Below, piece after piece: positions 6,096 through 27,877 of a stretch of 64,000 nucleotides of DNA. Under the pieces are notes generated by a model, which saw nothing but the letters and a program-made list of their open reading frames with translations, did not search any database and was not told the origin of the DNA. How positions within the stretch are numbered: position 1 is the first letter of the stretch; each line of letters opens with the position of its first letter. The stretch is taken from the NCBI RefSeq assembly GCF_035581365.1, contig NZ_CP141590.1, forward strand, positions 1,364,001 to 1,428,000, written 5' to 3'. Source of the DNA: Tsuneonella sp. CC-YZS046 (lineage in GTDB: Bacteria; Pseudomonadota; Alphaproteobacteria; Sphingomonadales; Sphingomonadaceae). The position numbers and the translations under genes were made by a program.

Positions 6096-7205
6096 ATGAC
6101 AAGTGTCCTTTCCCGCTATGAAGCGCTGGTCGCGTCCGGCGAATTGCGCGCCGATGACGAACAGGCCCGGGCAGCGCTTCGGCTGAACGAGCTTCAGCAC
6201 GATCTGGAAACGAGCCGCGATCGCGGGCTTTTCAGCCGCTTTCGGTCAAGGAAAGCCCAGCCCGTGCGCGGCGTCTATATCTGGGGAGATGTAGGGCGCG
6301 GCAAGTCGATGCTGATGGACCTGTTCCACGACAGCCTCAAGATACAGGAGAAACGCCGCATTCACTTCCATGCATTCATGCTGGAAGTGCATTCACGGCT
6401 GCGCGAGGAACGCAAGAAGGAAAGCGGCGACCCGATCCCGCCAGTGGCAAGCGCCATCGCCCAAGGCTTGCGGTGCCTCGCCTTCGACGAAATGGTGGTG
6501 AACAACAGCGCCGACGCGATGATCATGAGCCGCCTGTTCCGCGCGCTGATCGTCGATGAAGGCATCACCATTATCACGACATCCAATCGCGCACCGTCGC
6601 AACTCTACAAGGATGGCTTGAATCGAGAGCATTTTCTGCCCTTCATCGCGCTGATCGAGAAGGAACTCGATATCTTCACCCTCAATGGCCCAGTCGATTA
6701 CCGGCTCGATCGCCTGCGCGGCATCGATAGCTGGCATACGCCGCTGGGGGAGGAGGCAACGGCGCAAGTGCGTGAGGCGTTCTATCGCCTGACCGACTAT
6801 CCGCCGGAAGATGCCCACCATGTTCCTTCCGCCGAGCTGCAGGTTGCGGGGCGCAAGATTTTCGTGCCCAAAAGCCTCAAGGGCGTCGCCGTGTTCAGCT
6901 TCAAGCGCTTGTGCAGGCAGCCCTTGGGTGCCGCGGATTATCTTGCAATCGCACAGGCTTATCACACGATCATCGTCGTCGGCGTCCCTCAGCTGGGACC
7001 GGACGACCGCAATGAGGCAGCGCGTTTCGTCACCTTGATCGACGCACTTTACGAGAACAAGGTGAAGCTCTTCATCACCGCCCAGACCACGCCGGAAAAG
7101 CTGTATCAGGCGGGCGACAGCAGTTTCGAGTTCGAGCGAACGGTAAGCCGGCTGCAGGAAATGCAGAGCGCCGACTACATGGCCAAGGGCCACGGCGAAG
7201 CGTGA
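6096..7205 (+). CDS. zapE: Cell division protein ZapE (AFG1-like ATPase)
   Basis: AAA-type ATPase of the AFG1/ZapE family. In E. coli the homologue associates with the Z-ring and destabilises FtsZ polymers. The 369-residue protein has Walker A GDVGRGKS at residues 64-71 and a Walker B region LAFDEMVV, followed by SADAMIMSRLF and the sensor-like ITTSNRAP. The family motif RIHFHAFMLEVH lies after Walker A. It follows sdhB on the same strand with 45 nt between them, so the two may be co-transcribed; this pairing is common in sphingomonads. The length fits the family. Confidence 0.93.
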   Translation: MTSVLSRYEALVASGELRADDEQARAALRLNELQHDLETSRDRGLFSRFRSRKAQPVRGVYIWGDVGRGKSMLMDLFHDSLKIQEKRRIHFHAFMLEVHSRLREERKKESGDPIPPVASAIAQGLRCLAFDEMVVNNSADAMIMSRLFRALIVDEGITIITTSNRAPSQLYKDGLNREHFLPFIALIEKELDIFTLNGPVDYRLDRLRGIDSWHTPLGEEATAQVREAFYRLTDYPPEDAHHVPSAELQVAGRKIFVPKSLKGVAVFSFKRLCRQPLGAADYLAIAQAYHTIIVVGVPQLGPDDRNEAARFVTLIDALYENKVKLFITAQTTPEKLYQAGDSSFEFERTVSRLQEMQSADYMAKGHGEA

Positions 7206-7299
7206 AAACAATATACAGAGGGTAGGCTGAACGGCACCCAGGGGAACCGAGGATCACCTTACTCACCCTGAACCTCGCCCAAAACGCTCCGAGCCGGGG

Positions 7300-8259
7300 T
7301 CAGGCCGCGCGCGCGAGTTTCGCCTGCGCGGAGGCAAGGCGGGTCATCATCTTCAGATCCTTGTCCTGCAAGTGCAGCGCCGCGTCGGCCCAAAGATCGA
7401 CGATCGACTTCAGCTCATCGAGACACAAGGGAGAGCTTATGCGCTTTGCCTGCTTCGCCTTCACGAGGCCGAACTGGCGCCGCGCCGACTTGGCAATGAA
7501 TTCCTGGCAGGCGAGGCGCCCTTCCCCCGGCTCGGCCAGGATATGGACTATGCCGAGATCATACATCTGCTCGGCGGTGTAGGTCTCGTTGGAGAGGATG
7601 ATGCGTTCCGCCATGGCCGATCCCAGCTTGCGCGTGAGAAAGGCGTGCGCCCCCATGCCGGGAAACAGGCCGAACATGATTTCCGGCAGACCGAAGGTAG
7701 CGCCCCGTTCGGCCACGATGAAATCGAAGGAAAGAACCGCTTCGAACCCGCCGCCCAGGGCCGCGCCTTCGACCAGGCCGATGGTCAGCATCGGCAATTC
7801 GAGCGCCCTGATGTTGCGATCAAGAATTTCGACGCAGCGATAGCCGTAACGGATCAGACCATCCCTGTCCCCGGCCTGTATCAAGCTGTGAAAAAGCTCG
7901 AGATCGCCGCCGAAACAAAAGACGCCGGGCGCCCTGCTGCCTAAAACCAGAAAATCCAGTGGAATCTTGCCGGGTCCGAAACTTTCGCCGATCAGCCTTT
8001 GCCAATCTTCAAAGTCCCGCAACATGCCCAAAGTAAAACTCGGACGGCCCGGCGGGCGCATATACGTCCATAATGCCTTGGCGCCCGCATCATATAGGAC
8101 ATCGAGTTCATTCAATTGGAATAGAGCTTCGGGAATTGCGAGATGATCTTCGCTTTCCCTGACCAGGGCTTCTTCTCCTGGCTGCAAAATAATAGCGGGC
8201 TTTTCATCGCCCGAACAATTATCCTGGATGTGGCCTAGTCCCCCTGAGACCCGATCCAT
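7300..8259 (-). CDS. rpfF: DSF synthase-like crotonase (RpfF family)
   Basis: Crotonase-superfamily protein of 319 residues that closely resembles RpfF of Xanthomonas, the enzyme that makes cis-2-unsaturated fatty-acid signals (diffusible signal factor) by dehydrating a 3-hydroxyacyl thioester and releasing the free acid. Shared blocks include FGGDLELF near residue 117, GAALGGGFEAVLS and GLPEIMFGLFPGMGA. Glu173 and Glu193 are 20 residues apart, matching RpfF catalytic Glu141 and Glu161. This is unlike ordinary enoyl-CoA hydratases, which are shorter and lack the GDLELFHSLIQAGDR type segment. The ATG at 8259 has GAGGGTGG upstream; an earlier in-frame start at 8298 is less likely. It is monocistronic and divergent from the methyltransferase at 8518. 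No rpfC or rpfG sensor gene is in the window. Confidence 0.85.
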   Translation of the reverse strand: MDRVSGGLGHIQDNCSGDEKPAIILQPGEEALVRESEDHLAIPEALFQLNELDVLYDAGAKALWTYMRPPGRPSFTLGMLRDFEDWQRLIGESFGPGKIPLDFLVLGSRAPGVFCFGGDLELFHSLIQAGDRDGLIRYGYRCVEILDRNIRALELPMLTIGLVEGAALGGGFEAVLSFDFIVAERGATFGLPEIMFGLFPGMGAHAFLTRKLGSAMAERIILSNETYTAEQMYDLGIVHILAEPGEGRLACQEFIAKSARRQFGLVKAKQAKRISSPLCLDELKSIVDLWADAALHLQDKDLKMMTRLASAQAKLARAA

Positions 8260-8517
8260 ATTCCACCCTCGTATTAAAAGCCCTGCGTATATGAGCACTT
8301 CGCCAGAGCGGTGACAGCTTAAGCCTTCTATGAGTCCTCTGGCAATCAGTTATTGATCGGAGAGGATAAAAACATGCTCCAGAGCCGAATAATCACGGAT
8401 TGAGGCGAATTTACGATGCAATGGGAATGAATTCCTTCACCTTCGACACTCGACATCCCAGTTTGGCACGCGCGCAAGCCTATTTCCGGATATCGCGGCG
8501 ATGAGACTTGTCAGTTC
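8260..8517. promoter_or_regulatory. Divergent promoter region between rpfF-like and methyltransferase genes
   Basis: This 258-bp gap separates two divergent genes and must contain both promoters. It is more AT-rich than its surroundings. I see no secure -35/-10 pair and no clear operator palindrome. A good ribosome-binding site (AGAGGA, 8361-8366) precedes a nine-codon reading frame at 8374-8403, which could be a leader peptide but is too short to support. Confidence 0.4.
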
Positions 8518-9429
8518 ATGCCGACTGTGGACACTCTGCCCCAGATCGAATCGGGAGATTTCTTCGTCGTGACCGAAAACCGCGATATAAATCGTGAGCT
8601 TGGCGCTTTCGCAAATGTCGATGCCACCGACGCGAAAGACTTCATCAGCCGGCTCGACCGGATGCAGAGCGACGAGGGCTTCGGAGCCTACAAACGCCAG
8701 AATTTTCAAAGCCTGCAGCTTTCGCCCGGGGCGAAGGTGGCGGATATCGGTTGCGGCGCGGGCGATGACGCGGCCGCCTTGGCGGGCCTGGTCGGGCCGG
8801 AAGGCCATGCGACCGGCGTCGACATCAGCAGTTCCATGATCGAGGAAGCCGGCAAGCGCTTCGCGAATATCGAAAATCTCGACTTCGTGACCGCACCGGC
8901 CGACTCTCTCCCGTTTGAAACCGGCAGCCTCGATGCGATCCGCGCCGACCGGGTGTTGATTCATGTTCCCGATCCCCAGGCCGCGATCACGGAAATGCTG
9001 CGCGTGCTTAAGCCCGGCGGACGGATCGCGCTGAGCGAGCCGGACATGCTCGGCTTCTGGGTCGCGAACCGGGACCCGCAGATCAGCGCCGTGATCGCGG
9101 GCGCGATCGCGAATTCATGCCTTCATCCCAACCTGCCCCGGGATTTGAGCGTGCTGGTGCGCGACCTGCGGCTCGATGCGGTGAAGCATTGGGCGCTCGG
9201 CATGATAACCGACGATTTCTCCTTCGTGGATCAGGTCGTCCGCTTTGAAATGGTGGCGCAGGCGCTCGCAGCCAAGGGCGTTGCTCCGGCAGACCGCATC
9301 GAAGGCTGGGTTGCGGATCTTCTGGAGCGGCGCGAGAATGGGCGCTTTTGCGCGGGGCTTACCATTATCACCGTTGCGGCGGCCAAACCCGGCTCCTCGC
9401 AGGAAAGCGCCTTCCCCCAACTCGCCTGA
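8518..9429 (+). CDS. Class I SAM-dependent methyltransferase (UbiE-like)
   Basis: A 303-residue methyltransferase with an N-terminal extension of about 65 residues and then a Methyltransf_11 core: motif I VADIGCGAG at about 74-82, the acidic residue in GVDISSSM, the DAIRADRVLIHVPD segment, and RVLKPGGRIALSEPD. The substrate is unknown; UbiE-like folds act on quinones, lipids and many small molecules. It is the first gene of a likely three-gene operon with the hydrolase and the OmpW-type protein, and is divergent from the DSF-synthase-like gene. The ATG at 8518 has a weak ribosome-binding site, so the true start could be slightly downstream. Confidence 0.8.
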   Translation: MPTVDTLPQIESGDFFVVTENRDINRELGAFANVDATDAKDFISRLDRMQSDEGFGAYKRQNFQSLQLSPGAKVADIGCGAGDDAAALAGLVGPEGHATGVDISSSMIEEAGKRFANIENLDFVTAPADSLPFETGSLDAIRADRVLIHVPDPQAAITEMLRVLKPGGRIALSEPDMLGFWVANRDPQISAVIAGAIANSCLHPNLPRDLSVLVRDLRLDAVKHWALGMITDDFSFVDQVVRFEMVAQALAAKGVAPADRIEGWVADLLERRENGRFCAGLTIITVAAAKPGSSQESAFPQLA

Positions 9430-9473
9430 CAGGGTGGACGAAATCTTAACCATCTTCGGTGCAAGAAGATGGC

Positions 9474-10511
9474 ATGTTCGCAAGGAAGCATCCTGATACG
9501 GAATCCATCCATTTCGGATGGAGAGAGGCGGTCGCCTACGCGCGAACCGCCCTGTTCTTCCTGACGAGAAAGCGCCCGAAACTGTCGCTGACGGCTCTTT
9601 CCCGGATGAGCGCGATGGATGTCAGGACATTGCCTCCGATCCGGAGATTTACTGCAAGCGACGGCGAAACATTGGCTTACCGGACTTACCATGGCCCGGA
9701 AGAGCGGCAGATCGTGATGATACATGGCTCGGCCTGCTTCGGCGATCAGTTGCACAAGCTGGCCCGGCACATTGCCGAAGAATCCGCCGCGACCGTGCAT
9801 ACGATCGACATGCGCGGCCACGGCCATAACGCCAGAGGCTCCGCGCCCGCGGAAAGCTATGCCCGCGACGTCGGTGAATTCTGCGCGCATCTGAAACAGC
9901 ATCCGGCGCGGCCGCAGGTGATCCTGGCCGGCCATTCCGCCGGCGGCGGCCTTGTGCTGAACGCAGCCTATGGCCCTTATGTCCGCAACATCGACGGAAT
10001 GCTGCTGCTCGCGCCCTATCTCGGCATAGCGAGCGGATCGCTCAGGCCCTATTTCGGCGGCTGGCTGGTCGGCATCGCCTGGCTGAAACTGGCGGCCACG
10101 GCGGCGCTCAATCTGATCGGGGTCACTCGCTTCAACGATCGTCCGCTGGTGGCGTTCGACCGCGAAGCATGTCTTCACGACCCGCGCTTCGTTCGCGAAT
10201 GGTCCTTCGACACACTTCTCGGTTTCGGTCCGGGCATGACGCGCCCGGCATCGGCGGAAATGCTCGATTTCAGGATACCGATGCTGCTCATCAGCGGCGA
10301 TCGCGACGAATGCTTCCGGCCGGACCGCTACAAATCCGTCATGGACCGGATCGCGCCATGGGCGTCCATTCAATTGTTCCCGGGCCTTGGCCACTGGGAC
10401 ATTCTCGCAGATAATGGGGTCGCAACCTTCTGCGTGAATTGGCTCGAACGGCAGTTCGCCATCGAGCAGCGAGTGCAAAGAGGGAAAACAAAAGATGCCA
10501 AAATCGCTTGA
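9474..10511 (+). CDS. Alpha/beta hydrolase (lysophospholipase-like)
   Basis: A 345-residue alpha/beta-hydrolase. The nucleophile elbow is GHSAGGG with Ser155; the oxyanion region IHGSACFG is near residue 83; the acid is likely in LISGDRDECF and the base His in LGHWDIL. RGHG at about 114-117 is typical of the monoglyceride lipase/lysophospholipase group. A hydrophobic stretch near residues 18-31 may associate with the membrane. It starts about 44 nt after the methyltransferase (a GTG at 9459 is an alternative start) and its end overlaps the OmpW-type gene by 17 nt, so the three are probably one operon. The substrate is unknown; an acyl ester is likely. Confidence 0.8.
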   Translation: MFARKHPDTESIHFGWREAVAYARTALFFLTRKRPKLSLTALSRMSAMDVRTLPPIRRFTASDGETLAYRTYHGPEERQIVMIHGSACFGDQLHKLARHIAEESAATVHTIDMRGHGHNARGSAPAESYARDVGEFCAHLKQHPARPQVILAGHSAGGGLVLNAAYGPYVRNIDGMLLLAPYLGIASGSLRPYFGGWLVGIAWLKLAATAALNLIGVTRFNDRPLVAFDREACLHDPRFVREWSFDTLLGFGPGMTRPASAEMLDFRIPMLLISGDRDECFRPDRYKSVMDRIAPWASIQLFPGLGHWDILADNGVATFCVNWLERQFAIEQRVQRGKTKDAKIA

Positions 10512-11178
10512 AACCGGCCCGAGGCTGGCCATGCTGCCGCTGGCGCTCGCCGCGGGGATCGCCATTGCCAGCCCCGCTCACGCCGAAACCGAAAAGGGCT
10601 GGAAGGCCGGAGATGTCGTCCTCAAGCTCGGCGCGGCGGGGGTCCTGTTCAACTCTTCCGCCGACGTCGAAATTGCCGGAACCCCCGTCCCGGGCGGGAA
10701 TGTGAAGGTTTCCAACGACGTCACGCCCAGCGGCGAAATCTCCTATTTCTTTTCGCCCGCCATTTCGGCCGCCGTCAATTTCGGCATTCCGCCGAAAGCC
10801 ACGGTGGACGGCAAGGGAACCCTGACCGCCGCCGGAGAGCTTGGCCGGGTGCGCTATGGGCTGGGCGCGGTGACGCTGCGTTATCACCTGAACGATCAGG
10901 GAACCGTCTCGCCCTTCATCGGCGGCGGCGTGGGCCGTCTCTTTTCATTCAGCGAGGATGACGGCTCCGTGCTCGATCTCGAAGTGGACAGCGCCTGGGG
11001 CCCGGTCATCCAGGGCGGCGTGGACGTCCATCTGACTCCGAAATTCGGCCTTTACGCCAATGTCAGCTACTCGCCGATCGAAACCGATGCGAAGGGCATC
11101 ATCTTCGGCGCACCGACTGCCGCGGATGTGAAGCTCAACCCCACCATCGTGCAGGGCGGCGTTTCCTATCGGTTCTAG
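10495..11178 (+). CDS. OmpW-family outer membrane protein
   Basis: A 227-residue outer membrane protein with a signal peptide (about residues 1-30, ending in ASPAHA) and an eight-stranded OmpW-like barrel. Visible signs are GWKAGDVVLKLGAAGVLF after the signal peptide, PSGEISYFFSP, LRYHLNDQGTVSPFIGGGVG and the terminal phenylalanine (SYRF) used by the BAM complex. OmpW proteins form narrow channels for hydrophobic small molecules. The start overlaps the end of the hydrolase gene, which places a hydrophobic-molecule channel in the same transcript as a methyltransferase and a lipase-like enzyme. It converges with the XrtA operon, leaving only 5 bp between stop codons. Confidence 0.88.
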   Translation: MPKSLETGPRLAMLPLALAAGIAIASPAHAETEKGWKAGDVVLKLGAAGVLFNSSADVEIAGTPVPGGNVKVSNDVTPSGEISYFFSPAISAAVNFGIPPKATVDGKGTLTAAGELGRVRYGLGAVTLRYHLNDQGTVSPFIGGGVGRLFSFSEDDGSVLDLEVDSAWGPVIQGGVDVHLTPKFGLYANVSYSPIETDAKGIIFGAPTAADVKLNPTIVQGGVSYRF

Positions 11179-11183
11179 AGCGC

Positions 11184-13079
11184 TTATCCCGCCGAAAGCC
11201 TGTTCAGGGAACGCTCCAGCATCAGGAGCTGCCACAACAACCGGGAATGGTCCGATCTCGCGGAAATATGATCTTCCGCGAGATCGGCCAGCCTGGCCGT
11301 ATCGAACCAGCCCGTCTGCGCGAGCTGGGCGCTGGATGCGATCGCCCGCGCCTCGCTCGCCAGCGGCCCGCGCAGCCAATCCGCGATCGGGGTGACGAAG
11401 CCCTGCTTGGGCCGGAACAGGATATCGTCCGGCAGATAGCGGCGCATGGTGCGCTTCAGCAGGAACTTGCCCTGCCGGCCGTTCAACCGCATCCGATGAG
11501 GCAGGCGGGCGCCGAATTCCACCAGCTGGTGATCCAGCAGCGGCTCCCTTGCCTCAAGGCTTACCGCCATGCTCGTGCGGTCCACCTTCGTCAGTATGTC
11601 GCCCGGCAGCCAGAATTTCAGATCGGCATATTGCGCCCGATCTAATCCGGACTGGCAGGGCGCGTCGCGCATCAATGCGACGAGGGGCTGCTCCGCCCGG
11701 TAATCGCCGCGCAGACGGCGAAACTCGGGCGAATAGAGGCTCTCGCGGATTTCCGGCGGCGTGAACGCCAATGCGCGCGCATAGCCGGACGCGCCATCCT
11801 CGGCGAGCGACAGCAGCGTGGTCCTGGCGCGAAACGGGCGCGGCGCCCAATCCGCCTTGGGATAGATCGCGCCCAGCCCCCCGAACACTCTCCGGCGCAG
11901 GGGTGACGGCAAAAGCGCCCGCACGCTTTCTTCCCGGGCATGGAACATCTGGCGGCGATAGCCGGCAAAGGCTTCGTCCGCCCCGTCGCCCGAAAGGGCA
12001 ACGGTGACATTCTCCCGGGCGAGCTGGCAAACCCGCCAGGTCGGCAGGGCCGAGGCATCCGCGAAAGGCTCGTCGAACATCGCGGCGAGCCGGCCGATTT
12101 CCTGAAAATCGTCGGACCCGACGATCCGGCTGCGATGATCGGTAGCGAAGCGGCGCGCCACCTGATCGGCATAGGAAGTCTCATCAAGCGAGGCGACATC
12201 GAAGCCGATCGAGCAGGTCTTTACCGGAACGCTGCTGGACTCCGCCATCAGCGCCACGACGCTCGAGGAGTCCACGCCGCCCGAGAGGAACGCCCCCAGG
12301 GGAACATCGGCGACCATTCGCGAACCCACGGCGCCGCGAAGCAGGTGCAGTAATTGCGCCGAAAGATCCTCTTCCGAACCACGGCTGCGATGCTCGAAGG
12401 AGACATCCCACCATGATCGGGCGGCGGCCGGTTCCGCATCGTGGCGCAGCAGCCGGTAATGCCCGGCGGCGAGTTTCTCGACCGACTTCAGGATCGACCG
12501 GTGATCGGGGACATAGCCCCAGGCGAGATAGTCCTCGATCGCCAGCGGGTCGAACTCGCGCCGGAGCAGCGGATGGGCGAGAAGGCCCTTCAGTTCCGAA
12601 GCGAAAGCCAGACTGCCATCGCTCAATCGCGCGGTGAACAGCGGCTTCACGCCCAGCCGGTCGCGCGCCAGGAACAAGGTGCGCGCGCCGAGGTCATACA
12701 GCGCGAAGGCGAACATGCCATGCAGATGCTGGAGACAATCCACCCCCCAGCGCTGCCAGGCGGCAAGAATGACTTCCGTGTCGCCATCGGTATGGAATTG
12801 AGCGCCGCTTTCGGCCAGTTCGCGCCGCAATTCCCGGTAATTGTAGATTTCGCCATTGAAGACGATGACGGCGCGCCCGTCGGCCGAGCGCATCGGCTGG
12901 GGAGAGCCGGCAAGGTCGATGATCGACAGCCGCCGATGGCCCAGCCCTACCCCCGGCGCGGTCCACACCCCGCTGCCGTCCGGCCCGCGATGGACCATGG
13001 CGTCGCACATGCGCTCGACACGATGGGGATCGACCGGCTTCGGGGTGCCGCAATGGAAGATACCGGCAATTCCGCACAT
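11184..13079 (-). CDS. XrtA-associated amidotransferase (asparagine synthase-like)
   Basis: Glutamine-dependent amidotransferase of the asparagine synthase B type, recognised as the exosortase A-associated amidotransferase 1 group. It is 631 residues. The N-terminal class II glutaminase uses Cys2, exposed after Met removal; the ATG at 13079 was chosen for this reason over an earlier in-frame start at 13124. Glutaminase motifs include RRLSIIDL and FNGEIYNYREL. The C-terminal synthetase domain has the PP-loop SGGVDSSS and a later SGDGADE. It probably amidates a sugar acid or an acyl product of the locus; the substrate is unknown. It is the last gene of the XrtA operon, 10 nt after the exosortase stop. 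Confidence 0.92.
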   Translation of the reverse strand: MCGIAGIFHCGTPKPVDPHRVERMCDAMVHRGPDGSGVWTAPGVGLGHRRLSIIDLAGSPQPMRSADGRAVIVFNGEIYNYRELRRELAESGAQFHTDGDTEVILAAWQRWGVDCLQHLHGMFAFALYDLGARTLFLARDRLGVKPLFTARLSDGSLAFASELKGLLAHPLLRREFDPLAIEDYLAWGYVPDHRSILKSVEKLAAGHYRLLRHDAEPAAARSWWDVSFEHRSRGSEEDLSAQLLHLLRGAVGSRMVADVPLGAFLSGGVDSSSVVALMAESSSVPVKTCSIGFDVASLDETSYADQVARRFATDHRSRIVGSDDFQEIGRLAAMFDEPFADASALPTWRVCQLARENVTVALSGDGADEAFAGYRRQMFHAREESVRALLPSPLRRRVFGGLGAIYPKADWAPRPFRARTTLLSLAEDGASGYARALAFTPPEIRESLYSPEFRRLRGDYRAEQPLVALMRDAPCQSGLDRAQYADLKFWLPGDILTKVDRTSMAVSLEAREPLLDHQLVEFGARLPHRMRLNGRQGKFLLKRTMRRYLPDDILFRPKQGFVTPIADWLRGPLASEARAIASSAQLAQTGWFDTARLADLAEDHISARSDHSRLLWQLLMLERSLNRLSAG

Positions 13080-13089
13080 GGGATTGCGG

Positions 13090-14655
13090 TTAGCGAAGCT
13101 TGGCGATGCGGTCCATCCACGCATCGATCGGACCGGCGGCCTTGCGGAGAGCGGATATGCTTTCTTCCGGCGGGGGATGCCCGGCGCGATCCTCAGCCGA
13201 AAGGATCAGAACCATCGTCGGCTCATCGTCCAGCAGCAACCGCTGCCGCATCGTCGCCAGCTTGAGGCGTCCATTGCTGCCGGTCAGCAATCCGCCGGTG
13301 CGATAATAGGTCGCGGCGAGGCGCTTCACCTGGCCATTGGCAAGCAGGCGCTCGCTCTTTGCGTCGGGCACGGCCGGACCCGGCTCGAGCCAGCGCCATG
13401 GCGTGTCGGGAATCAGCGCGCCCTGGCCGAATCCGCCTGCTTCCTTGCCGTCTTCCTGCGAGGCATAGAGCGCGAAGAATACGTCGACCTTATGGCCGCG
13501 ATCATCCACATAGCTTGCCAGCAGCCGGTGATTTGCCCCTTCCGCGCGCGGCTCCCACCAGATTTGCGGCTCGAATTGCAGCAATTGCCAGCCCTGGACC
13601 TGGGGTAAGGCGATCTGCCGGGGCATTTCGGCGGAAAGGCGACCGGCCAGCCCCGCCCATAGCAACACCGTCAGCGCCATGGCGCCGATCTCGCCCATGG
13701 CAGCCACCCCACCGATGCGTCCGTCCGGTAGACGCGCGAGCCATGCCGAGCGCTCGATCGCATCCGCATTGATGAAGCGCGAATCGCTCGCGCGATCGAA
13801 AAAGCGCCACGCGATAGCCAGTATCACGGCAAGAATGATCGCAAAGAACACCCAGCCATAGATGATATGATCGAACCCGGCGGCGAACTCGATCCCCCGG
13901 AATTGCGCGATGTAGATCGTGCCCCACGCGCGCACCCCATTGGCGAGGATCGGCACCACGATGCAGATCGCCATGAAGGCCAGGCGGCGCCCCCAGCCCT
14001 TGAAGCAGACATGGCTGATGAGCACGCCCAGCGCCACCATCGCCACCAGGAACTTCACCCCTGAACAGGCCTCGGCCACTTCGAACAGGCCCACCGGCGT
14101 ATCGATGAACACCCCGTCCACTACCGCCGGAATGCCGCTCCAATGCGTAAGGGCGATGGTCAGCTTCGCGGTGACCAGTTGCAGCGGCGGAACCAGTTCG
14201 TCACCGAACGGGACCAGAAACAGCATGTAACACAACGGAAACAGCAATGCGGCTGCTACACGCGGCCCCAGCAGGGCCAGAACCGCGCCCTGGAGCATCG
14301 CCACCGCGCCGAGCTGCCGCGCCAGATTGAGGCCCGACACCGCACCCAGCAGCCACAGGAAGCAGGCGCCGGCAATGAACAACAGGCCCGGCCACCAGGC
14401 TCTGGGTGAAAGCCGCGCCAGCTCCGGAGCGCGCAGCATCACCAGCCATGCGACGATGGCGGGCACGAATATTATGTGATTGTAGGTAGAGCTGTTCCAC
14501 CACTGGTCAGCCATCGCGAACCAGTCCCGCCAGAAGGCGCCCATCAGCCCCATCGCCGCAACGACCAGGCATATCAAGGGCAGGCGCCAGACTTCCGGAA
14601 CCCTGCTCGCCACGCCCTGCTTCGGCCAATAAGGAAGCGCAGTGTCACGCGACAT
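13090..14655 (-). CDS. xrtA: Exosortase A fused to an EpsI domain
   Basis: Inner-membrane cysteine protease/transpeptidase that processes the C-terminal PEP-CTERM signal of exported proteins. It is 521 residues. The first 300 hold several membrane spans and the exosortase triad: Cys197 in EACSGVKF, Arg242 in NGVRAWGT and His263 in FDHIIYGW. From about residue 320 a further span leads into an EpsI-like periplasmic domain, a fusion typical of exosortase A. The ATG at 14655 overlaps the glycosyltransferase stop by 11 nt, indicating coupling. No protein with a recognisable PEP-CTERM tail is encoded in this window, so its substrates lie elsewhere. Confidence 0.95.
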   Translation of the reverse strand: MSRDTALPYWPKQGVASRVPEVWRLPLICLVVAAMGLMGAFWRDWFAMADQWWNSSTYNHIIFVPAIVAWLVMLRAPELARLSPRAWWPGLLFIAGACFLWLLGAVSGLNLARQLGAVAMLQGAVLALLGPRVAAALLFPLCYMLFLVPFGDELVPPLQLVTAKLTIALTHWSGIPAVVDGVFIDTPVGLFEVAEACSGVKFLVAMVALGVLISHVCFKGWGRRLAFMAICIVVPILANGVRAWGTIYIAQFRGIEFAAGFDHIIYGWVFFAIILAVILAIAWRFFDRASDSRFINADAIERSAWLARLPDGRIGGVAAMGEIGAMALTVLLWAGLAGRLSAEMPRQIALPQVQGWQLLQFEPQIWWEPRAEGANHRLLASYVDDRGHKVDVFFALYASQEDGKEAGGFGQGALIPDTPWRWLEPGPAVPDAKSERLLANGQVKRLAATYYRTGGLLTGSNGRLKLATMRQRLLLDDEPTMVLILSAEDRAGHPPPEESISALRKAAGPIDAWMDRIAKLR

Positions 14656-15889
14656 GGCGGCGTTCCGGTTCTGCGGGCCTGCGGCCCAGAAGCTCGGGCA
14701 GGCGGCACAGCATCGACTGCCAGCTGCGGTTCCGCACGACATATTCGCGCGCGGCCCTGCCCATCGCGGTCATGGCTTCCGGCGCCTCAAGCATTTCCAG
14801 CGCCCTGCGGGCCAGTGCCTCATCCGTATCGGCGACGGCGAAATGGACCCCATCCTCTCCGCCGATGCCTGTCGCCGCCTCCGGCGTGAGCAGGACGGGG
14901 CGGGCCATGGCCATCGCTTCCAGCACCTTGTTCTGTACGCCCCGGGCAATGGCGAGAGGCGCGGCAACGATATCTGCGGCAGCGATGAACGGGCGAATGT
15001 CCTCCACCGCGCCCCATACCCGGCAGCCATCGTGCCGATCATGCGCAAGCAGCGCCGCGCCGGGATTGCGCCCGACAATATGGCATTGCGCCTGGGGGTG
15101 GACCGCGCGGATTCGCGGCAGGATATTCTGCATCAGGCGCAACGCGGCCGCCGCGTTCGGAGCGTAATCCATCTGCCCGGTAAAGACGATGTGCGGCCCC
15201 CTGGCATAGGCCAGCGCGGGCGCGGGCTGACTGAGAACCGGATCGAAGAAGCCCGAATCTATGCCATTGCCCAGGGCGCTCACCCGCGCCCCCTCCGCAT
15301 CGCCGAGGCGCGATTTGAAGAGTTCCGCCTCGGCTTCGCTGACCAGCAATGTCTCATGGGCACGCCGCGCGAGCCGCCCTTCCTCGATGGCGAGAAGCCG
15401 CCCTTCCCGCGCGTCGATCCAGCGGCGCGGCCGAAATCCGGCCTGGGCATATGCTTCGAACTTGGCCGAATCGACATCGACCAGATCGACCAGGACACGG
15501 CCCGAATAATCATCCGGCACATATTGGCCCATCTGGCCGGAAAAGACGTAGATCGCGCCGATCCGCCGCTCCGCGATCACCTTGCGCACATAGTCCTGCA
15601 AGCGAACGTCATGGAAGGCAGCGAGGCTCACCGGCTTGCCACTGAAAAGCGCTTCCACCCCAGCCCGCCAGAGCGGCTTGTCGCGCCTTACCAGGCAATG
15701 GCTCTTCGCAATGCCGGCGAGATGGCCTTCATGCGACAAATCCCGCTCGTTCTCCGCGAATGTCGCGACATGCACAGGCGCGATCGCGGCCAGCGCATTC
15801 AGGACATGGTAGGACCTGATCTTGTCCCCGCGATCGGGGGGGAATGGCATGCGATGCGCCAGGAACAGGATTTCCGCCAGCTTCCTCAC
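14645..15889 (-). CDS. XrtA-system glycosyltransferase (TIGR03087-type)
   Basis: A 414-residue GT-B glycosyltransferase of the exosortase A-associated group. It begins KLAEILFLAHRMPFPPDRGD, the family's conserved N-terminus, and contains GNGIDSGFF, IVFTGQMDYAPN and the nucleotide-sugar binding region VAAPLAIARGVQNKVLEAMA. It should add one sugar of the polysaccharide repeat on the cytoplasmic side. The GTG at 15889 overlaps the FemAB gene's TGA (GTGA) and directly precedes the conserved N-terminus, so the longer in-frame extension to 16060 was rejected. It is the only glycosyltransferase in the locus, too few to build a repeat unit alone. Confidence 0.93.
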   Translation of the reverse strand: MRKLAEILFLAHRMPFPPDRGDKIRSYHVLNALAAIAPVHVATFAENERDLSHEGHLAGIAKSHCLVRRDKPLWRAGVEALFSGKPVSLAAFHDVRLQDYVRKVIAERRIGAIYVFSGQMGQYVPDDYSGRVLVDLVDVDSAKFEAYAQAGFRPRRWIDAREGRLLAIEEGRLARRAHETLLVSEAEAELFKSRLGDAEGARVSALGNGIDSGFFDPVLSQPAPALAYARGPHIVFTGQMDYAPNAAAALRLMQNILPRIRAVHPQAQCHIVGRNPGAALLAHDRHDGCRVWGAVEDIRPFIAAADIVAAPLAIARGVQNKVLEAMAMARPVLLTPEAATGIGGEDGVHFAVADTDEALARRALEMLEAPEAMTAMGRAAREYVVRNRSWQSMLCRLPELLGRRPAEPERRHVA

Positions 15890-24101: not shown

Positions 24102-25328
24102 CTAAACCAGCAGCTCCAGCGCCGGCCCCTGCCCCAAAAAAGCCGCCGGGCTGGCGGTCGCGCCATAGGCGCCGGCGCAGAAAATGGCGACCAGATCGCC
24201 GACCTGGGCATCCGGCAGCATCGCCTTGTCCGCCAACCGGTCAAGCGGCGTGCAGAGACAGCCCACCACACTCGCCTCAACCGATGGCGAGCGGGTGAAT
24301 TGCGTCGCGATCGCCACGGGATAATTGCGGCGAACGACGGTGCCGAAATTGCCGGACGCCGCAAGCTGGTGATGAAGCCCCCCGTCAGTCACCAGGTAAA
24401 GCTCGCCATGGCTTTCCTTGCGATCGACGATGCAGGCCAGATAAACTCCCGCCTCACCCACCAGATAACGCCCCAGTTCGATACAAAATTGTGTTTTTGC
24501 AATCTCTTGAGGGATATTCTCAAAGCGATTTGACAACGCCTTGCCGACCGCTCCGATATCGAGCGGTTCGTCTCCGGCAAAATATGGAATACCGAAGCCC
24601 CCGCCCATGTTGAGATGAGGCAAGGGCGCGCCGATCTCCCGGGCCAGCCGGGCCGCGAGGTCCAGCGTGTTGCCTTGCGCCTCGATTATCGCTTCCGAAG
24701 ACAATGCCTGGCTGCCGGCGAAGATATGCAGGCCGCGCCATTCCGCTCCGGATGCGACGATCTTTCGCGCAAGCGCCGGCACTCGCTCCGTATCGATACC
24801 GAATGGCTTGGCGCCGCCGCCCATTTTCATGCCCGATCCGCGCAATTCGAAATCCGGGTTCACGCGGATAGCCAGACGGGGACGCTTGCCCAGATTCCCG
24901 GCGATGGCCAGCGCACGAGCCGCCTCGCCTTCCGATTCCAGGTTGAGCGTGACCCCGGCCGCGATCGCGGCTTCCAGTTCCCAATCACGCTTGCCCGGCC
25001 CGGCAAAGCTGACTGTGGCCAGATCGATGCCAGCCTTCCGAACCAGTTCCAGTTCACCGCCGGATGCAATGTCAAATCCATCCACCAAGCCTTTGATGGA
25101 TTCCAGAAGAGGAATATAAGGATTTGCTTTTACTGCATAATGAATCGAAAGATCATCGGGCATGGCAGAGCGAAGCTTGGCCACCCGCTGCTCGATCATG
25201 GCTTTGGAATAAACGAACAGTGGCGTGCCTCCGGCACGAGCGACGAGTTCGCTCGCCCGCACGCCTCCCACGGCAAGTTCGCCATCGACGGCATCGAAGC
25301 CGGAAGGTATCGGACCGAGCGGTTTCAT
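24102..25328 (-). CDS. PLP-dependent decarboxylase of the XrtA system (fold type III)
   Basis: A 408-residue PLP enzyme of the diaminopimelate/ornithine decarboxylase fold, in the exosortase A-associated subgroup. The PLP lysine is Lys67 in IHYAVKANPY. The phosphate-binding Gly-rich segment is LNMGGGFGIPYF, and the active-site motifs are ELGRYLVGEAGVY and VVGCLCTPLDRL. The likely substrate is an amino acid or an aminoacyl group, but this is not known. Its start overlaps the acyl-CoA ligase stop by 4 nt (ATGA), so the two are translationally coupled and may act in one pathway with the ACP encoded across the divergent junction. Short AT-rich patches (about 24481-24530) differ from the surrounding base use. 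Confidence 0.92.
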   Translation of the reverse strand: MKPLGPIPSGFDAVDGELAVGGVRASELVARAGGTPLFVYSKAMIEQRVAKLRSAMPDDLSIHYAVKANPYIPLLESIKGLVDGFDIASGGELELVRKAGIDLATVSFAGPGKRDWELEAAIAAGVTLNLESEGEAARALAIAGNLGKRPRLAIRVNPDFELRGSGMKMGGGAKPFGIDTERVPALARKIVASGAEWRGLHIFAGSQALSSEAIIEAQGNTLDLAARLAREIGAPLPHLNMGGGFGIPYFAGDEPLDIGAVGKALSNRFENIPQEIAKTQFCIELGRYLVGEAGVYLACIVDRKESHGELYLVTDGGLHHQLAASGNFGTVVRRNYPVAIATQFTRSPSVEASVVGCLCTPLDRLADKAMLPDAQVGDLVAIFCAGAYGATASPAAFLGQGPALELLV

Positions 25329-26851
25329 GCCGTCAGATCCCGCATTAATGCCGTGCGGTCAATCTTGCCGTTGGGATTGAGCGGCATGGCATCACGCCAG
25401 TGGATTACCTTGGGCTGCATGAAATTGGGAAGTTCCTTCATCAGCAAGCCCGGCAACCGCCCCTGCGGATCGTCCACGCCAACCACCGGCCGCACCACCA
25501 GATGGATGGCCTGGCCGAGCCGTTCATCGGGCACACCCAGCGCAACCGCTTCCACTACCAGCCCGGTCCCGCGCGCGACATCCTCGAGTTCCTGCGGGCT
25601 TATCCGATTGCCCGCACTCTTGATCATGGCGTCACGGCGGCCCACGAAATAGAGCAGGCCATCGGATGCGCGCCTGACCCTGTCCCCCGACCATACCGCC
25701 ATGCCGCCATACACGGACATCGGCGGCGCAGGCCGGAATCGTTCGGCCGTCCGTTCCGGATCGCGCCAATAGCCTTGCGCCACCAGCGGGCCGCAATGCA
25801 CGAGTTCTCCTTCCTCATCGGCCTCGGCCAGATCGCCCCGGTCATTGATGACGAGAACTTCCGCGAAGGGGATCGCCTTGCCCATGGAAGTGGGATGCAC
25901 ATCGACCAGGGCCGGGTCGAGAAAAGTGGAACGGAACGCCTCGGTAAGTCCATACATCGGGAAAATGCGCGCATTGGGAAAGGTGGATCGCAGGGCGGCG
26001 ACAAGATCAGACGTCAATGCGCCCCCGCTGTTGGTCAGCCGGCGCATCGAAGCGGACGCTTCTTCCGGCCACTCCTGCTCCACCAATTGGACCCAAAGCG
26101 GCGGAACGGCCGCAAGCGTCGTAACGCCATGCCTCAGGCATGCCTTGATGACGTCGCGCGGGGTGAGATAATCGAGCGGCACGACACAGGCTCCCGCCTT
26201 CCAGGCGCTCAAAAGCTGGTTTTGCCCGTAATCGAAGGCAAGCGGGAGGACGCCCAGCACGACGTCATCCGCGGCCAGATCCAGATAATGCGCCACGCTC
26301 ACCGCCCCCAGCCAGAGGTTGGCATGGCTCAGCACCACGCCCTTGGGCCGGCCCGTCGAACCGCTGGTATAGAGAATTGCGGCCATTTCTCCGGGATCTG
26401 CCGACGATGGCGGCAGGAAGCGATCGAGCACCTCCGCATCGGACCAGGCCTCGCCTTCTTCCATCTTGCGGCATGACGCCGGGATGTCGCCCAACTCCAA
26501 CGATGCCAGACGCGCCTTGTTGGCGATCAACAGAACGGCGCCGCTATCCGCCAATATATGGGCAACCTGGGCGCGCTTGAGCAAAGGATTGATAGGCACA
26601 TGCACCAGCCCCGCCCGGGCCGCGGCCAATGGCAGGAGACAGCTCAATTCGCCCTTTGCCATCCAGCTCGCGATACGCGCCCCTTTTTCCGGCGCGATCT
26701 CCGCGAGCCATGCCGCCAATACGCCTATACGCCTCCTTAAGGCCTGATAGGTAAGGGTCCGGTCGCGCAAGACCAGCGCGGATGCGCCATCCTCTCCCGC
26801 CTCGGCGAGATGATCGAGCGGTCGGGGCTGGAGATCAAGCGCAACGGGCAT
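25325..26851 (-). CDS. Acyl-CoA ligase / AMP-dependent synthetase of the XrtA system
   Basis: A 508-residue ANL-superfamily adenylating enzyme, exosortase A-associated. Core motifs are A3 YTSGSTGRPKG, A5 YGLTEAFRST, A7 SGDRVRRASDG and A10 NPNGKIDR with its catalytic Lys. It activates a carboxylic acid with ATP and should load CoA or the nearby acyl carrier protein. The ATG at 26851 (MPVALDLQP) was taken as the start; a longer frame to 26935 would run into the divergent gene. It is divergent from the GNAT gene with only about 36 bp between start codons, so promoters must overlap coding sequence. Confidence 0.92.
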   Translation of the reverse strand: MPVALDLQPRPLDHLAEAGEDGASALVLRDRTLTYQALRRRIGVLAAWLAEIAPEKGARIASWMAKGELSCLLPLAAARAGLVHVPINPLLKRAQVAHILADSGAVLLIANKARLASLELGDIPASCRKMEEGEAWSDAEVLDRFLPPSSADPGEMAAILYTSGSTGRPKGVVLSHANLWLGAVSVAHYLDLAADDVVLGVLPLAFDYGQNQLLSAWKAGACVVPLDYLTPRDVIKACLRHGVTTLAAVPPLWVQLVEQEWPEEASASMRRLTNSGGALTSDLVAALRSTFPNARIFPMYGLTEAFRSTFLDPALVDVHPTSMGKAIPFAEVLVINDRGDLAEADEEGELVHCGPLVAQGYWRDPERTAERFRPAPPMSVYGGMAVWSGDRVRRASDGLLYFVGRRDAMIKSAGNRISPQELEDVARGTGLVVEAVALGVPDERLGQAIHLVVRPVVGVDDPQGRLPGLLMKELPNFMQPKVIHWRDAMPLNPNGKIDRTALMRDLTA

Positions 26852-26887
26852 GATGACGTAATATGCTCCCGAGGAGATTCTGGACGG

Positions 26888-27877
26888 GTGATCGAGGCCA
26901 GCTATCACGACAAGGTTAATGTCCTGCAAGACCATAAACTCGCGAGCGAAGGCCCCTTCGACCGCGTGGAATGGTTCGCCTTGCTCGAAGCCAGCGATAA
27001 TGTGCGGCCGGTAACGATCAAGCTATCCGCCGAAACCGGACTGGCGGCCATGGTGCTCAAGAGGGGGAAAGATCGCCTCGAGCCGCTGGCCAACTGGTAT
27101 TCCTTCATCTGGCGGCCTGTTTTTACCGCCAACGCTCACCGCGCCGCCCTTCTCGATGCTGCGGCGCGATACCTGAAGCAACATGCCAGGCGCGTCACCT
27201 TATGGCCGCTGCCGGATGAAGACGGCAGCGCAACCCTGATCGAAGCCGCCTTCCGCAGGGCAGGCTGGGCCGTATTCCGCTCCGTATGCGACACCAATCA
27301 TATCCTGCGCGTCCAGGGCAGGGATTATGGAGAATATCTGGCCAGCCGCCCTGGCGCGCTGCGCACCACGCTGAAGCGGAAAGCCAAGAAGGTAGAAATA
27401 AATATTTCTAATTATTTTCATGATGATACATGGGAAATATACGAGGAAATCTATGCACAAAGCTGGAAGCCTGAAGAAGGCGACCCATCGCTTCTGCGCC
27501 ATTTCGCCCAGGCCGAGGGCGATGCAGGCCGCATCCGCCTCGGCATAGCGAGGCACGAAGGCTTGCCTGTGGCTGCCCAATTCTGGACGGTCGAGAACAA
27601 TACGGCCTACATCCACAAGCTCGCCCATATCGAGAGCGCGCAGAATCTGTCCGCCGGCTCGGTGCTGACAGCCGCGCTCATGAAGCATGTCCTCGACACG
27701 GACCGCGTGGAGATCGTCGATTTCGGCACTGGCGACAATGGCTACAAGAAGGACTGGATGGACGATGTTCGCCCCCGCTTCCTGCTGGACTGCCATGACA
27801 CCAGAAATCCACACTCCTGGCCTTACATACTCCGGGGAACGGCACGCCGGGTTGCCTCTCGTCTTCGGGCTGGCTAG
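26888..27877 (+). CDS. GNAT/FemAB-like acyltransferase of the XrtA locus
   Basis: A 329-residue GNAT-fold protein. Recognisable are GPFDRVEWFALLEA near residue 22, RTTLKRKAKKVEI, WTVENNTAYIHKLAH and VDFGTGDNGYKKDWM, which resemble the acetyltransferase-like proteins that accompany exosortase A acyl modules. The transferred group is unknown. A GTG at 26888 with GAGGAG about 11 nt upstream is the chosen start; an ATG at 26810 would overlap the divergent ligase gene. The centre of the gene (27401-27460) holds only 16 G/C in 60 bases, strikingly AT-rich for this genome. It heads a plus-strand operon with the ACP and two hydrolases. Confidence 0.8.
   Translation: MIEASYHDKVNVLQDHKLASEGPFDRVEWFALLEASDNVRPVTIKLSAETGLAAMVLKRGKDRLEPLANWYSFIWRPVFTANAHRAALLDAAARYLKQHARRVTLWPLPDEDGSATLIEAAFRRAGWAVFRSVCDTNHILRVQGRDYGEYLASRPGALRTTLKRKAKKVEINISNYFHDDTWEIYEEIYAQSWKPEEGDPSLLRHFAQAEGDAGRIRLGIARHEGLPVAAQFWTVENNTAYIHKLAHIESAQNLSAGSVLTAALMKHVLDTDRVEIVDFGTGDNGYKKDWMDDVRPRFLLDCHDTRNPHSWPYILRGTARRVASRLRAG

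Follow-up and report, generated by a model that had tools for sequence, protein, structure and literature searches.

The RpfF enzyme of Burkholderia is said to have been described by Bi et al. in 2012 as a bifunctional dehydratase-thioesterase, and sphingomonads are known mainly for acyl-homoserine lactones. For DSF signalling, two core perception systems, RpfC and RpfR, are distinguished in PMC4504480, where convergent order of rpfF and the receptor gene is given as a known arrangement for both of them. The residues E141 and E161 are critical for RpfF catalysis, according to PMC9040811. According to PMC6361424, RpfF cleaves C12:0-ACP, RpfR binds BDSF through its PAS domain and degrades c-di-GMP, and RpfF is restrained by the FI domain of RpfR. 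The BDSF-RpfR system is placed in beta- and gammaproteobacteria (PMC8846402), and a community study predicts rpfB/rpfF synthesis for 35 of 39 OTUs (PMC7498683). Among the matches listed for the open-licence literature, no title or abstract reports a sphingomonad DSF synthase with a membrane GGDEF-EAL partner, subscription journals and preprints being outside the scope of the search; the passages of PMC9040811 and PMC7498683 in which a sphingomonad occurs together with RpfF describe no such pairing either. The family of the synthase treated here is already known; what would be new is its pairing with a membrane GGDEF-EAL receptor whose sensor belongs to a new class, and the tailoring enzymes.

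The window, by which the whole analysed stretch of 64,000 nucleotides is meant, carries the synthase gene between zapE and a methyltransferase gene, close to an exosortase locus. The features that matter for the argument are the following.

6096..7205, plus strand: zapE, convergent neighbour of the synthase gene, a flank marker outside the signalling system
7300..8259, minus strand: RpfF-family crotonase (PRK08788 type; P0001), 319 residues from an ATG start, with catalytic-type E173 and E193
8518..9429, plus strand: SAM-dependent methyltransferase MT2 (Pfam Methyltransf_31/11/25), divergent from the synthase gene
9459..10511, plus strand: alpha/beta hydrolase (Hydrolase_4), coming after MT2
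10495..11178, plus strand: OmpW-family outer membrane protein (Pfam OmpW, 84.7 bits), overlapping the hydrolase gene
11184..13124, minus strand: XrtA/PEP-CTERM amidotransferase (asnB-like, TIGR03108)
13090..14742, minus strand: exosortase A (TIGR03109) of the exopolysaccharide locus, a neighbour with no shown part in the signalling system
G000:C1:1571302-1573278 (= L239:6303-8279), outside the window: candidate receptor, TM-GGDEF-EAL, 658 residues

An alternative GTG start of the synthase gene lies 39 bases upstream of the ATG and would give 332 residues. By sequence, tree and fold, the window gene is a member of the RpfF family. The crotonase scores 81 bits with Pfam ECH_1 and 337.7 bits with the NCBIfam family PRK08788 (NF006452, cut-off 177), by which the family score is reached, far above what chance would give, the family being named only 'crotonase/enoyl-CoA hydratase family protein'. 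The xanthomonad-type RpfF equivalog NF053515 is not reached (194.4 bits, cut-off 550); on this model L149 scores 580 bits and the Burkholderia/Cronobacter-type L153 scores 181 bits, and since L153 also misses the cut-off, the miss of the window crotonase is no argument against DSF synthesis. In a PDB sequence search, the closest solved chains are four distinct RpfFs (7zq7, 3m6m, 5fus and 6dgn, with E from 2.2e-52 to 5.5e-44), after which ordinary hydratases begin at E 2.9e-16, some 28 orders of magnitude away.

A tree of 96 rows was built from 90 BLAST relatives of the window crotonase (one of which, L183, is below the family cut-off) and six hydratases of its own genome. The 90 RpfF-family rows split from the six hydratases with an SH-aLRT of 100. 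The window crotonase falls in a 44-row clade (99) within a 77-row group that includes xanthomonad RpfF (85, not starred), and the Burkholderia/Cronobacter RpfF group (100) adjoins this 77-row group. L149 (648 bits to 7zq7 over all 289 residues, 507 bits to 3m6m) and L153 (431 bits to 6dgn, 429 bits to 5fus) serve as the references in this tree. The AlphaFold model of the window crotonase has a mean pLDDT of 82 and an uncertain N-terminus, with residues 1–27 below pLDDT 50. It matches five solved RpfF entries with Z of 35.0–36.5 and 1.6–1.8 Å over 261–270 residues; the next crotonase in the fold comparison comes at Z 28.3, about 7 Z units under the RpfF structures.

An earlier note on this DNA had taken the gene to be DSF-synthase-like, of the RpfF family, and sequence, tree and predicted fold support that reading; a grouping with non-RpfF hydratases, which by the same note would have refuted it, did not appear in the tree, where the crotonase groups with the RpfFs and apart from the hydratases. 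It was also right that Glu173 and Glu193 are both present, 20 residues apart and aligned with the RpfF pair, and that the FGGDLELF and LFPGMGA blocks are both found. It gave no strand for the gene, which lies on the minus strand and converges with zapE. Its use of the correctly spaced Glu pair as a mark of RpfF has to be abandoned, because the paralogues L001 and L007 of the own genome keep both residues with the same spacing and the pair is general to hydratase-type crotonases. Each of E173 and E193 is kept in 89 of the 90 family rows, some ordinary paralogues having them as well, and W290 is conserved in all 90. It is the LFPGMG block, W290 and the tree that indicate RpfF identity, and not the Glu pair. 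The production of a cis-2 fatty acid by the window enzyme is inferred, without enzyme data.

We propose that the encoded enzyme is an RpfF-family DSF synthase and that its product is perceived by an unlinked membrane TM-GGDEF-EAL receptor. We consider this explanation likely, with the activity and the ligand binding being inferred. By the mechanism of RpfF, which is carried over here by inference, the enzyme would dehydrate 3-hydroxyacyl-ACP to cis-2-enoyl-ACP and would then release the free cis-2 fatty acid as the signal. Most likely, the signal would be perceived by the 658-residue membrane protein, in which an N-terminal multi-TM sensor is followed by GGDEF and EAL, and perception would couple cell density to c-di-GMP turnover, much as RpfR, a soluble PAS-GGDEF-EAL receptor, does, except that the sensor domain here is an unrelated one in the membrane. 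The direction of the c-di-GMP change is likewise inferred, and exopolysaccharide and biofilm as outputs are guesses from the neighbour genes and known DSF systems.

Thirty loci of more distant relatives, hand-chosen from the family matches and none of them from the exosortase-linked crown, were compared, and all their reading frames were scanned with two TM-domain profiles, A1 (sensor) and A2 (RpfC TM). The A1 profile has seven rows, namely the neighbour proteins of L224–L228 and L214 and the own protein. In 16 of the 30 loci, 11 of which are A2 profile rows, the synthase gene directly converges with a gene for an RpfC-type TM protein. The A1 sensor domain is found beside the synthase gene in eight loci: the gene is convergent in L214 and in the f1 Sphingomonadales L224–L228, all of them profile rows, and on the same strand in L183 and L186. 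An RpfR-like GGDEF-EAL gene is present at L209, L211 and L212. The labels RpfC-like and RpfR-like for these neighbours are our presumption, based on the order of domains and on sequence; in NCBIfam the RpfR-type protein of L209 is called 'cyclic di-GMP phosphodiesterase' (PRK10060). Pfam scans of ten neighbour proteins gave GGDEF and EAL in eight and HisKA-HATPase-REC-HPt in two, and two of the eight, L222:2832-4979 and L227:3647-5992, are separated from the synthase gene by one gene.

Several hydrophobic segments make up the A1 domain, which is followed by GGDEF and EAL and has no Pfam match at 0.001 in any of the 11 proteins scanned. Pfam confirmed GGDEF and EAL in ten synthase-neighbour proteins as well as in the own protein, L183 and L186 being outside that scan. 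The idea that A1 is a divergent RpfC TM domain was rejected for lack of homology (hhalign probability 0.3%). In the proteins of L214, Methylobacterium and Bosea, PAS_7 lies between the TM domain and GGDEF-EAL, so that the PAS domain could be the sensor there, as in RpfR. Seven of 16 plasmid records with a synthase relative were opened, two of them (H6, H14) without usable annotation. Convergent A1-GGDEF-EAL genes that are not profile rows were found on plasmids of Sphingomonas parapaucimobilis YK209 (244 bits), Methylobacterium radiotolerans JCM 2831 and M. oryzae H33R-06 (197 bits each), and Bosea sp. RAC05 has an A1-type gene on the same strand beside the synthase (99 bits). The stretch of Methylorubrum extorquens AM1 with a 41% synthase relative gave no A1 or A2 match.

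The own genome (G000) has ten EAL proteins. The candidate receptor aligns over its full length with the synthase-neighbour proteins (53% to that of L228, 38–42% to those of L224–L227) and keeps the GGDEF, EALVRW and DDFGTG motifs. A Pfam scan of the candidate gave GGDEF and EAL with nothing before them, and no PAS domain was found by Pfam in it or in its f1 relatives. Its gene is 200 kb from the synthase gene, and the two genes are not adjacent in near relatives either. An RpfC elsewhere in the own genome was looked for with the A2 profile and none was found. As for an RpfR-type protein, the best own EAL match to the L209 protein (L232) aligns only from residue 271 on and not over the N-terminal part, a test that rests on EAL-protein matches without a dedicated FI profile genome-wide. 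The earlier statement that no RpfC-like sensor is nearby can be extended to the whole genome, as far as A2 tells, and the accompanying guess of a receptor elsewhere or of another type is borne out, at the level of a prediction, by a TM-GGDEF-EAL protein whose gene is unlinked here and convergent with the synthase in sister clades.

Compared with the xanthomonad RpfF/RpfC-RpfG system, the synthase is of the same family (in structural alignments, 35% to 3m6n and 39% to 7zq7), and in sister clades of the window gene a sensor gene is convergent with it as well. However, the own genome has no RpfC-type TM profile match, the candidate sensor is TM-GGDEF-EAL, and the window synthase gene stands beside an exosortase A locus. 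It is the same case for the synthase family of the Burkholderia/Cronobacter RpfF/RpfR system (32% to 5fus and 33% to 6dgn), with which a GGDEF-EAL partner, convergent in sister clades, is shared too. Different from RpfR, which is soluble with FI and PAS domains, the own candidate has a multi-TM part without Pfam match, has no PAS domain, and is unlinked.

Co-occurrence was counted in 246 genomes of the order Sphingomonadales. The synthase was scored as present over the NF006452 cut-off and the receptor at 100 bits or more to A1, a threshold chosen after seeing the list, with 11 genomes at 32–63 bits counted as receptor-absent. Six of the seven A1 rows (five f1 relatives and the own protein) come from these same 246 genomes and two A2 rows come from G181 and G153, all of which match by construction. 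The synthase is present in 43 genomes, the A1 sensor in 47 and the RpfC TM domain in 11. A1 occurs in 36 of the 43 synthase carriers versus 11 of the 203 non-carriers (Fisher p 1.8e-26), and 41 of the 43 have either A1 or an RpfC-type protein. Five of the seven carriers that remain have an RpfC-type match no more than about 3 kb from the synthase gene: the two genes converge directly in G181 and G153 and have that spacing in G072 too, and in G008 and G017 they diverge with one gene between them. G034 and G041 (78% and 64% complete) have the synthase without an A1 sensor or RpfC-type match. In the 36 synthase-sensor genomes, the pair is adjacent in seven, 194 kb to 1.6 Mb apart in 21, and on different contigs in eight.

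A genus-stratified calculation gives p 3e-10 and treats species as independent; a test on a tree is more reliable. Descent was corrected for on a quick tree of two proteins, ZapE and SdhB (SdhB found in 79 of 80), from 80 f1 genomes: all 36 with synthase and sensor, all 11 with the sensor only, and 33 with neither, mainly from the same genera. The three f1 genomes with synthase and RpfC (G181, G153, G072) and four carriers of other families were left out, and independent pairs were taken from starred branches only. In 13 independent pairs differing in the synthase, the sensor on average changes with it in 9.3, against it in 0, and not at all in 3.7 (median p 0.004, range 0.001–0.016). The synthase and the candidate receptor have been co-inherited after becoming unlinked.

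The sensor-GGDEF-EAL protein occurs without an RpfF-like gene over the cut-off in eleven genomes (G092, G141, G135, G078, G130, G051, G170, G150, G233, G101 and G020), which are possible listeners to signals of other species. In ten of these eleven, exosortase A and zapE lie on one contig, 2.1–4.2 kb apart. This is consistent with loss of the synthase gene from between the two, the receptor being left behind, as inferred from distances and not from alignment.

Is the TM-GGDEF-EAL protein really the receptor? The DSF synthase might be genuine and the protein co-inherited with it otherwise, for example through feedback on the synthase, or the sensor might be another EAL protein or a kinase. The number of EAL proteins in the own genome leaves room for this, DSF sensors vary, as PA1396, BCAM0227 and RpfS show (PMC4504480), and A1-like domains are found in further alphaproteobacteria in which no PRK08788 gene exceeds the cut-off. 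We nevertheless judge it unlikely, given the convergent position in sister clades, the full-length similarity, the coupling after unlinking, and the RpfC-type gene that stands in the receptor's place in five of the seven other carriers. Under the preferred explanation, with the TM-GGDEF-EAL protein as receptor, the A1 sensor still has no homology to the RpfC TM domain, so that fatty-acid binding rests on association alone; the eleven sensor-only genomes, together with the A1-like domains lacking a synthase, mean that A1 may sense something broader than the synthase product.

The XrtA/PEP-CTERM exopolysaccharide cluster occupies the minus strand from 11184 onward, with amidotransferase, exosortase A, glycosyltransferase, FemAB protein, deacetylase and ATPase over their NCBIfam cut-offs. 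An exosortase-A-associated decarboxylase (TIGR03099) and acyl-CoA ligase (TIGR03098), both above cut-offs, are encoded at 24102-26935 on the minus strand of the window. Genes of this sphingomonad locus are neighbours of the synthase in the window and in most of its close relatives, of which the best 80 of 125 found were used (59–72% identity; Sphingomonadales, as far as record titles are specific). Of these 80, 52 have the amidotransferase gene on the strand of the synthase and at most 400 bases upstream of it; it is farther off in 14 and was not found in another 14, some of which are short contigs. Wherever zapE was found, which is in 71 of them, it converges with the synthase gene. In 13 of the 80, mostly Novosphingobium by title, 4.6–5.2 kb separate the amidotransferase and synthase genes, and in the one locus scanned the intervening stretch (L015:5907-9864, plus strand) encodes an RbbA-like ABC transporter.

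The close and frequent linkage to the amidotransferase gene would fit an accessory enzyme of the exopolysaccharide locus, for example one that makes the acyl group of the polymer or of a lipid carrier, rather than a signal synthase. We regard this as improbable. The crotonase is present in just 37 of the 136 exosortase-A genomes used (of 161 over the cut-off), and G205, G235, G185 and G031 have it without exosortase A over its cut-off; basal family members adjoin a GGDEF-EAL gene. On the same 13 pairs, exosortase A differs the same way in 2.4, the opposite way in 0.5, and remains unchanged in 10.1 (p 0.5), that is, it is not co-inherited with the synthase. Because exosortase A is uncoupled in this test, the locus is weakened as a functional partner, and the place of the synthase beside it looks like an inherited position rather than a shared function. 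That the gene encodes an ordinary enoyl-CoA hydratase/isomerase for the degradation of fatty acids or aromatics, with RpfF-like blocks kept by chance, is very improbable: the crotonase fold and the Glu pair are indeed common to hydratases and the NCBIfam family name goes no further, but the tree, the E-value gap and the Z gap all separate it from them, receptor-type genes adjoin family members, and the synthase is coupled to a c-di-GMP protein on the tree.

With the gene read as a DSF synthase with a membrane receptor, the methyltransferase-hydrolase pair beside it suggests signal tailoring. MT2 was searched for in 72 of the 101 genomes over the synthase cut-off plus G609, and at E 1e-20 such a methyltransferase is present in only three of these 73, the own genome, G486 and G428 (there unlinked), so it is rejected as a general feature of synthase carriers. 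It was not found in the sequence stretches around the synthase of the best 80 relatives (of 125), and on plasmids there was no match at E 1e-20. In G486, of a lineage outside the class and with an RpfR-type partner, rpfF is flanked by homologues of MT2 (43% identity) and of the hydrolase (36%), in the order and orientation of the window. Since MT2 is rare and absent beside the synthase of close relatives, yet stands beside rpfF in G486, it is probable that the pair arrived by transfer and works together with the synthase. Our best guess, made by analogy, is that it may form and cleave a methyl ester; Ralstonia uses 3-hydroxy-ester signals. Whether the OmpW gene belongs to this module is uncertain, and among the loci compared the OmpW protein has one weak match only, in L227.

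Tailoring of another kind may occur elsewhere. Four genomes from other families of the order encode the synthase as a fusion with a Haem_oxygenas_2 domain (70–85 bits, cut-off 28.9).

L180:1994-3880, plus strand: RpfF-like crotonase with C-terminal heme-oxygenase-like iron oxidase (PF14518)
L182:6019-7911, minus strand: fusion of the same kind
L179:5989-8016, minus strand: fusion of the same kind
L181:6820-8886, plus strand: fusion of the same kind

PF14518 was found in nine of 44 genomes searched, in five of which it is fused to the synthase gene or overlaps it. The overlap is seen in L184 (G483, a distant lineage), with an RpfF-like gene at 6578-7561 and an oxidase gene at 7558-8280, both on the minus strand and sharing 4 bases. 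The own genome has no PF14518 protein, which rules out such an oxidase acting with the synthase there. UndA, the first functionally validated enzyme of the heme-oxygenase-like superfamily, decarboxylates fatty acids (PMC13108848). Around the fusions, an RpfC-type TM protein is encoded one gene away in L181 and L182; a SAM methyltransferase gene weakly similar to MT2 (L179:5049-5933, minus strand) lies directly downstream on the same strand in L179; and an RND-type transporter gene (HAE3/HpnN-like, below model cut-offs; L181:9011-11383, plus strand) comes directly after the fusion in L181.

Only tentatively, and with more doubt than confidence, we raise the wider idea that Alphaproteobacteria have a third core DSF system, made up of RpfF and a TM-GGDEF-EAL receptor with an undescribed sensor domain, the signal of which would be chemically tailored in several lineages, by methyltransferase and hydrolase in the window genome and by the fused or overlapping iron oxidase elsewhere. 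If true, a large group known mainly for acyl-homoserine lactones uses fatty-acid signals, for which a synthase and a candidate receptor can be named and c-di-GMP is the readout, and the chemistry of DSF signals extends beyond plain cis-2 acids; in the search for new signal structures, the methyltransferase pair and the fused oxidase offer concrete starting points.

A relative of the P0001 crotonase (36% over residues 101–306) was also met on a faecal Escherichia coli plasmid (L303, NZ_CP060058.1, 4806-5639), where its gene is clustered with genes for an FtsX-like permease and for lipoprotein sorting.
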